From positions 1,210,640 through 1,274,639 of the forward strand of contig JAVQMD010000001.1 in assembly GCA_032595675.1 (NCBI GenBank): a stretch of 64,000 bases of DNA, written 5' to 3'. Position numbers and translations under genes: made by a program. Below the pieces are notes generated by a model, which did not search any database, had not been told where the DNA came from, and saw nothing but the letters and a program-made list of their open reading frames with translations. This stretch comes from Candidatus Electrothrix rattekaaiensis. Lineage in GTDB: Bacteria; Desulfobacterota; Desulfobulbia; Desulfobulbales; Desulfobulbaceae. Shown piece after piece: positions 3,101-3,793 of this stretch (position 1 is its first letter; every line of letters begins with the position of its first letter).

Positions 3101-3469
3101 TTACGGTCGAATCACCAGCGCAGTTCTGTATTCGGTTTTCACCGGGCAGGAACCGTTGTCCGGGAAGGAGTAGACTTCCACGACAAACATTCCGTTTTCC
3201 TTTTCCGGCAGAATACGGATGCGAGCATTGCCGTGCAGTTTGTCTTTACCGAGCTGACCATCCGCTTTTCGGAGTATTTCAGCCCCTGCTGCAAAGGCTT
3301 CTGCCGGGGTTTTTCCGTAATCTCGGATGCAGATTTTGACAGCATCAGGGCCGCCAACAGTGGTTCGATTGACTTTCAGATTTTCTTCGGCTGCAAGCGG
3401 CGCGGCACAAAGAAAAAGAGCTGTCAGTATAGCCATACTTCTGTTAAATAACCTTCCTGTGGTTTTCAT
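3101..3469 (-). CDS. Small secreted protein of unknown function, riboswitch-associated
   Basis: 122 residues with a clear signal peptide (basic MKTTGRLFNR, hydrophobic SMAILTALFLCAAPL, cleavage near AAEEN), so the mature protein of about 95 residues is probably periplasmic. The mature part has two Cys (ICIRDYG and GSCPVKTEY) that could form a disulfide, and is rich in Lys, Glu and Gly. I do not recognise the family. The start is supported by an AGGAGGAG ribosome-binding site just upstream. The leader contains a candidate c-di-GMP-I riboswitch ending in a short terminator-like stem plus T-run, and the gene is closed by a strong terminator, so it is a single-gene transcription unit. If the riboswitch call is right, the protein is expressed according to c-di-GMP, suggesting a surface, adhesion or motility-related role; this is inference. 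Confidence 0.8.
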   Translation of the reverse strand: MKTTGRLFNRSMAILTALFLCAAPLAAEENLKVNRTTVGGPDAVKICIRDYGKTPAEAFAAGAEILRKADGQLGKDKLHGNARIRILPEKENGMFVVEVYSFPDNGSCPVKTEYRTALVIRP

Positions 3470-3484
3470 AATCTCCTCCTGGTA

Positions 3485-3600
3485 TTATAAGGAAATAAAA
3501 AAGCAGACAACCCGGCTGTCTCTCCAATGAGACCCGTGGCTTTCCGACACCGCCTCACGACGGCTGTGGCTTTTACAACTTTCCAGGGGATGAAACTTGT
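3485..3600 (-). ncRNA. Candidate GEMM / c-di-GMP-I riboswitch
   Basis: Read on the minus strand from about 3580 to 3504, the leader carries the segment AAAGCCACGGGTCTC, a short loop, then GAGACAGCCGGGTTGTC, which closely follows the conserved 3' half of GEMM-I riboswitches. Before it comes a stem closed by a GTGA (GNRA-type) tetraloop inside a GCCGTC/GGCGGT helix, as expected for the tetraloop-receptor arm, and a GTAAAAGCC strand in the place of the usual GCAAA-CC. The outer P1 pairing is weak (two G-U pairs). Immediately downstream, AGACA/TGTCT forms a short stem followed by TTTTTT (about 3494-3518), a possible transcription-termination platform overlapping the aptamer's 3' strand. It precedes a secreted protein, a common target. 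Recognition is from memory of the consensus. Confidence 0.6.
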
Positions 3601-3793
3601 GTTTGCTACCCCTGACCAGAAAGTTTTTCGCCCGCTTTGCAAAACAATCAAGCACAACATATATAAAGCACGAACTGTGCCAGAATGTAGCAGGAGTTTT
3701 TTCCAGGAGGAAGAAGTAGAGGGAAATCGACAGGAGAGGGTAAAAAATACCCGGCTTGCTACATAAATGTATCTCATGTCGCAAGGTATTTTG

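Follow-up and report, generated by a model that had tools for sequence, protein, structure and literature searches.

The window, a 64,000-nucleotide (64-kb) stretch of a Candidatus Electrothrix rattekaaiensis contig, contains on its minus strand a gene for a small exported protein, the leader of which carries an aptamer of the c-di-GMP-I (GEMM-I) family preceded by conserved strands and a putative promoter (Table 1). The gene starts with an ATG at 3469, with AGGAGG five bases ahead of it. The match to RF01051 (cmscan) is complete, spanning model positions 1–87 with an E value of 5.6e-8, and it is the sole Rfam match in the 64-kb window at or above the gathering cut-off, which for this family is 35 bits. 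A preliminary description of the locus had proposed a GEMM-I riboswitch in this minus-strand leader, and the match bears it out: judged by sequence, the element belongs to the c-di-GMP-I riboswitch class. Elsewhere in the window, at 1376–2058, a gene for a HigB-type toxin is followed by a helix-turn-helix partner, and the two are likely a toxin–antitoxin pair.

Table 1. Features of the switch, its leader and the downstream gene, in 5′-to-3′ order on the minus strand
Feature	Position	Strand	Basis
Putative sigma-54-like promoter TGGCACAGTTCGTGCT; RNA predicted to start near 3656	3667..3682	-	loose regular expression for the sigma-54 consensus
Strand D, AAGCGGGC; its possible pairing with tail 3508-3501 would bury base 92	3630..3637	-	swap test, fold
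Strand A, CUUUCUGGU; P0 5′ arm and predicted anti-Shine-Dalgarno	3615..3623	-	9/9 pairs with 3483-3475
P0 3′ arm, CCCCUGGAAAG; overlaps P1 5′ strand	3579..3589	-	P0 own-versus-swapped z -5.0
P1 5′ strand AAAGUUG; partner 3506-3500	3576..3582	-	sequence
c-di-GMP-I aptamer (RF01051)	3503..3580	-	54.9 bits against gathering 35
G20-equivalent ligand-reading base, G	3570	-	RF01051 alignment, mapped via J1/2 as described in PMC6274999
A47-equivalent base, A	3543	-	RF01051 alignment
Weak terminator-like hairpin, then GCTTTTTT	3505..3521	-	sequence, fold energies
C92-equivalent ligand-reading base, U (GGGUU-G-U-CUGC)	3507	-	U in 5/5 distinct orthologue aptamers, window included
Tail GUCUGCUUU; P1 3′ strand and alternative partner of D	3500..3508	-	pairing score
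Shine-Dalgarno site, able to pair with strand A, ACCAGGAGG	3475..3483	-	leader sequence, pairing
Exported 122-aa protein (signal peptide by eye)	3101..3469	-	ORF; family in 2/20 genera searched

In the RF01051 alignment and the predicted fold, P2 is capped by a GUGA tetraloop of the GNRA type (GCCGUC-GUGA-GGCGGU, 3564–3549) and P3 keeps its bulged AG; the GNRA stem and a 3′ half close to consensus are both as the preliminary description had read them. The 5′ side is atypical, again as described earlier: the adjacent P1 (AAAGUUG/CUGCUUU) contains one U–U mismatch, and further conserved strands reach to about 3637. An own-pair test of P1 covariation was not significant (z -1.4, reached by 156 of 2,000 permutations), and our placement of P1 rests on the known c-di-GMP-I architecture. 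The internal loop of P2 reads ACA/GUC, as opposed to AAA/GAC in the model. Position 92 was mapped through published descriptions of the Geobacter aptamer, in which J1/3 consists of G74–C75 and J1/2 ends in A14 (PMC6274999), and of the Vc2 contacts, in which C92 reads the second guanine of the ligand (PMC9049102). Because this C is replaced by U, with G20 and A47 kept, we refer to the window element as a variant rather than a plain RF01051 member; it is divergent, as suspected earlier.

Two related GEMM models come close to elements of this kind. In a scan of the small region, RF03168 (c-di-GMP-I-UAU) outscored RF01051 with 63.6 bits, 2.3 below its gathering cut-off of 65.9. Its consensus, GuUGUC, shares U92 with the window and has U at the G20 position, where the window has G; we rejected membership on the score and on position 20, the combination of U20 and U92 as a mark of the class being our own reading of the model consensus. 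The RF03168 cut-off is exceeded by the switches of two window-gene orthologues (G005 and G006), not by those in G001, G004 and G007, and by none of the 21 elements of the window’s genome. Among seven loci of this genome that were scanned, two (L001 and L002) reach the cut-off of RF03167 (GGC), an assignment that we rejected for both because position 47 is A.

The protein behind the switch had been described as a 95-residue exported protein of unrecognised family. A signal peptide placed by eye agrees with export, but the reading frame preceded by a good Shine-Dalgarno sequence encodes 122 residues, and 95 is approximately what remains after that signal peptide. The family is indeed unrecognised, with no match to Pfam or NCBIfam, and the protein has no sequence relative in the PDB (best E 0.84). 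An AlphaFold model built from five sequences contains a beta-alpha-beta-beta core at residues 47–101 (mean pLDDT 60.2), and a fold search with this weak model returned no good match (best E 0.13). The family occurs in 9 of the 27 genomes searched; Ca. Electrothrix marina A5 has an orthologue with 82% identity, and the MAG Desulfobulbaceae S24.Bin023 has one with 73%. Leaders of homologous proteins, to which the preliminary description had pointed, repeat the arrangement in part: once 3 of 31 family loci with a match limited to the first 40 residues are set aside, a switch stands directly upstream of the family gene at 13 of the 28 loci examined, and it is absent at the G002 orthologue. The earlier picture of one switch controlling one small protein holds insofar as the element precedes the 122-aa gene, yet the genome contains 21 related switches, three of which (the window’s, L008 and L018) precede members of the window protein family.

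All 21 RF01051 matches in the window’s genome carry the variant core, CCACA...G(U/C)CGG as opposed to GCAAA...GACGC in the RF01051 consensus. Seven other genomes of the genus contain 21, 10, 27, 18, 9, 21 and 19 RF01051 matches, ten other genomes of the family contain 0–5, and nine of the order contain 0–2, except for one with 24. In the latter genome (G024), from another family of the order, none of the 24 fits the variant-core pattern. Of the 257 genomes from 69 genera of the class that we searched, 12 from two genera match a degenerate version of this pattern, namely 8/8 genomes of the window’s genus and 4/5 of a second genus, g10; the reversed pattern, used as a control, had no match in the same search. 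Cable bacteria are described as two candidate genera (PMC10030654), and from that statement we infer that g10 is Ca. Electronema. As seen here, the two genera that carry the variant appear to be cable bacteria or relatives of these. Literature searches, with most subscription papers outside their coverage, found no publication on a riboswitch in Electrothrix, and the matches listed for cable bacteria with c-di-GMP or riboswitch, and for Desulfobulb with GEMM or c-di-GMP riboswitch, included none on the subject.

The genus has canonical c-di-GMP-I copies as well, with tandem examples in G004 and G007. At these loci (L084 and L085, respectively), three canonical aptamers lie 131–135 nt apart, with an adjacent TTAAG/CTTAA P1 and tails that look terminator-like by eye; both genomes also hold many variant copies. 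L120 (G003:C76) has, next to a complete element, a half one that covers model positions 3–37 and continues with TCTGTTTTTTTTT; this suggests duplication or decay. In the window’s own genome, candidate target genes located up to about 450 nt downstream of the switches encode, among others, CAP-domain, phosphonate-type binding, RHS-repeat and fibronectin-III proteins, a hemerythrin and a protein with a PilJ-like domain. Some of them stand after a short ORF. A short ORF of roughly 46–123 codons uses the switch-covered Shine-Dalgarno site at no fewer than 7 of the 21 loci; a larger gene starts 180–450 nt past the aptamer at L005, L009, L010, L012, L014, L015 and L017, and L002, L006 and L009 have common sequence in the region between aptamer and larger gene.

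Comparison of these elements revealed conserved pairing partners on the 5′ side of the aptamer. From 131 distinct hits we parsed 103 variant elements, the remainder being canonical, partial or unparsed, and 101 of the 103 have both an upstream arm and a gene start. Most elements contain a hairpin, P0 (CUUUCYGG...CCRGAAAG), upstream of the aptamer (L004 lacks the arm), and in many a further strand, D (AGCRGGU), lies directly 5′ of P0. The 5′ arm of P0 (strand A) matches the Shine-Dalgarno region as a complementary strand, with 9/9 pairs in the window and at least 8/9 in 77 of the 101 elements. With registers picked to maximise pairing, the duplex energy between A and its own Shine-Dalgarno partner was -9.33, as compared with -7.90 for partners swapped between elements (z -7.5, 0/2,000 permutations, 89 unique combinations), and a second score gave the same result (z 7.6, 0/5,000 permutations, 87 unique combinations); with the Shine-Dalgarno sequence reversed, z was 0.0. 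At least 8/9 pairs form in 74% of own and 62% of swapped combinations within the main set, the latter fraction being this high because both strands have a consensus, and in 19% of trials in which the 87 A strands were set against 19 ordinary window leaders. A tree that leaves out A and the Shine-Dalgarno region was built from the 93 of 101 elements with at least 7/9 pairs; on it, 12 compensatory changes were counted, each within a single branch, at positions 5, 6, 8 and 9.

Twenty elements fetched later, 18 of which have the arm (L210 and L223 do not), again show the complementarity, with at least 8/9 pairs in 14/18, but own partners paired no better than swapped ones (p 0.37). Diversity among these 18 is low; a shared consensus therefore accounts for part of the A:Shine-Dalgarno signal. 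Among the six g10 loci of this set, which overlap places examined earlier, pairing is 9/9 in L206, L208 and L209 and 8/9 in L205 and L207, and L210 is the one without the arm. The other strands behave similarly in the main set. P0 arms fit their own partners better than swapped ones (z -5.0), as do D and the aptamer’s 3′ tail (z -4.7); the D:tail score is at least 10 in 62/101 elements, as compared with 28.5% of shuffled regions, and below 10 in the other 39/101. In L188, an A in D stands opposite U92, by eye restoring the pair.

A start of the RNA near 3656 is predicted from the putative promoter at 3667–3682, which resembles the sigma-54 consensus. Such a site lies 41–43 nt before the P0 arm in 5/5 distinct leaders of window-gene orthologues; among all elements scanned there are nine matches, to a loose pattern used without a chance control. 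Sites of this type also occur at L019, L046, L140 and L146, and sigma-70-like sites were seen by eye at many other loci.

Starting from the family match, the conserved complementarity with its partial covariation, the distribution and the base changes, we propose that the element is a variant c-di-GMP-I-class switch that turns translation off, with the A:Shine-Dalgarno duplex as its output and U92 retuning the ligand site, a reading that we hold to be slightly better than an even bet. The strands are ordered, 5′ to 3′, D, A, P0 3′ arm/P1 5′ strand, aptamer, tail and Shine-Dalgarno, and two mutually exclusive nested folds of them would control translation of the secreted 122-aa protein. Without ligand, D would pair with the aptamer’s 3′ tail and bury base 92, and A would be held by the P0 3′ arm, leaving the Shine-Dalgarno site free of A and allowing translation. 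With ligand, the pocket and P1 would need base 92 and the P1 3′ strand; P1 would take the AAAG of the P0 3′ arm, and the released strand A would pair with the Shine-Dalgarno site across the aptamer and shut translation off. U92 would either weaken the affinity for c-di-GMP or favour a ligand that places an adenine opposite it, such as 3′,3′-cGAMP.

The geometry of the pairings is compatible with such an exchange. D:tail nests with A:P0-3′, and P1 nests with A:Shine-Dalgarno, whereas D:tail crosses A:Shine-Dalgarno; because that last pair would form a pseudoknot, the two sets of strands exclude each other. Since D pairs with base 92, the state combining D:tail with A:P0-3′ cannot hold ligand. 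We considered D as a lengthened P1 and rejected the idea because D also pairs with base 92, which is needed for ligand binding. For the window RNA, free minimum-energy folding yields the state with D:tail and P0, at -61.1 kcal/mol, as compared with -54.0 kcal/mol for the A:Shine-Dalgarno state; in the ON fold, the Shine-Dalgarno site also sits inside a local hairpin. Ligand binding at high affinity (0.011 nM in Vc2, PMC9049102) could pay the 7 kcal/mol, with the proviso that the window has U92. Across 75 usable of 77 elements, a comparison that excludes L140 and L146, the energy difference between the states ranges from -14.0 to +12.8 kcal/mol, a spread so wide that some elements do not look switchable.

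Relative to the described c-di-GMP-I riboswitches (RF01051; Vc2, Vc1 and Cd1), the window element has the same fold, GNRA stem and A47 and G20 equivalents but differs in U92, in the ACA/GUC loop of P2, in the extra 5′ strands D and A and in the position of its predicted anti-Shine-Dalgarno strand upstream of the aptamer. Vc1 likewise precedes a gene for a secreted protein, GbpA, but there c-di-GMP raises expression (PMC4744006), whereas the window element is predicted to be an OFF switch. The GEMM-I aptamers of pilM (Geobacter metallireducens) and Cd1 exchange strands as proposed here, with a downstream terminator as their output (PMC9262584) in place of the predicted upstream anti-Shine-Dalgarno strand. 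The Geobacter 3′,3′-cGAMP riboswitches (GEMM-Ib) share the fold with the window, and a reading base is altered in both; their A14 maps to position 20 (PMC6274999), where the window has G (3570), its own change being at 92. The A20 that marks GEMM-Ib is found instead in four paralogue switches.

Altered reading bases are concentrated on the window protein family. Among 121 distinct variant elements, read with position 47 not forced, positions 20/47/92 are G-A-C in 109, G-A-U in 8 and A-A-C in 4. The 12 distinct switches that precede the window protein family comprise five with U92 (the window’s and those of four distinct orthologues), four with A20 (the paralogue switches L018, L053, L054 and L055) and three plain ones. 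In a comparison that forces A47, positions 20 or 92 are thus altered in 9/12 switches of the family and in 3/109 others (L137, L188/L206 and L218; L212, outside this comparison, has C at 92), with a Fisher p of 4e-9 that ignores shared ancestry. The altered switches in each group are related by descent, which leaves at least two origins, not nine.

The ligand may be c-di-GMP or 3′,3′-cGAMP. That it is plain c-di-GMP acting through the same architecture, with U92 as tolerated drift or as a change that lowers affinity and thereby sets a higher threshold, overlaps with the explanation that we favour, and we give it an even chance. The predominance of G-A-C in the variant as a whole points this way, as do GGDEF proteins, which are encoded in 8/8 genomes searched, with 13 matches in the window’s genome. 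The retention of U92 in 5/5 distinct orthologue switches and the concentration of altered bases on one protein family argue against it, and in Vc2, c-di-GMP binding goes from 0.011 nM to 4900 nM when G20A and C92U are combined (PMC9049102).

A different output would follow if the element were a transcriptional ON switch: the hairpin at 3521–3505 and its U-run would terminate transcription without ligand, ligand-bound P3 and P1 would prevent this, and U92 would complete the stem. In the window and four other distinct orthologues (L056, L060, L064 and L061), AGACAGCCGGGTTGTCTGC is followed by T5-6, U92 takes away an A–C mismatch in the hairpin stem, and pilM of Geobacter is a precedent for a terminator-based ON switch (PMC9262584). 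The hairpin and U-run of the short overlapping terminator proposed earlier are real features of the sequence, but the stem is worth -6.7 kcal/mol as compared with -13.8 kcal/mol for the overlapping P3 that it must break, and three such sites occur between 2950 and 4050, about 1.5 sd over shuffles (mean 1.4, sd 1.1). Moreover, two other U92 elements, L137 and L188, have T-runs of only 4 and 3, and runs of 5–7 T are also present in elements without the stem (L002 and L125). The weak fold and this site count led us to reject the terminator as the main output and to keep it as a rival that we think fairly unlikely; judged on the aligned leaders, the upstream anti-Shine-Dalgarno strand has the better comparative support, the later set taken alone excepted.

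If translation is controlled through strand A as we favour, a bolder extension is that the protein family moved from c-di-GMP to 3′,3′-cGAMP control by two routes, an idea that we regard as unlikely. Among the duplicated riboswitches, one paralogue group would have followed the Geobacter route, A20, and the window group would have acquired U92 while keeping G20, the upstream anti-Shine-Dalgarno strand serving as output for both. By simple pairing, U92 together with G20 would read one G and one A and hence cGAMP. We know of no described natural switch with the combination of G20 and U92. In the window’s genome, L174 (G000:C1:268769-269236) encodes a GGDEF domain with GHHAGT and a Thr at the Hypr selectivity position; this Thr is conserved in 6/6 genomes of the genus that were checked (L174 and L177–L181), with the GGDEF motif intact. 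Hypr GGDEFs have serine at this position and ordinary GGDEFs have aspartate (PMC6456294), and a protein of the L174 type could be the source of a cGAMP ligand.

Finally, the element might be a decayed copy or one without function, carried along when promoters and signal-peptide regions were duplicated, as the many similar copies per genome, the half elements or loss of P0 at some loci (L004 and L120) and the G002 orthologue without an element might suggest, but the window copy keeps P2, P3, A47, P0, A:Shine-Dalgarno and D:tail, scores 54.9 bits and is retained in five distinct orthologues, and we consider decay very improbable.

With 9–27 c-di-GMP-class switches per genome in the genus, several of them before secreted-looking proteins, the genus offers a sequence-defined candidate regulon. 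If the upstream anti-Shine-Dalgarno strand is true, it would represent a riboswitch layout in which the output strand stands ahead of the sensor. A shift of ligand caused by U92 would reveal a second natural route to altered GEMM-I specificity and open up cGAMP signalling in cable bacteria to direct tests.
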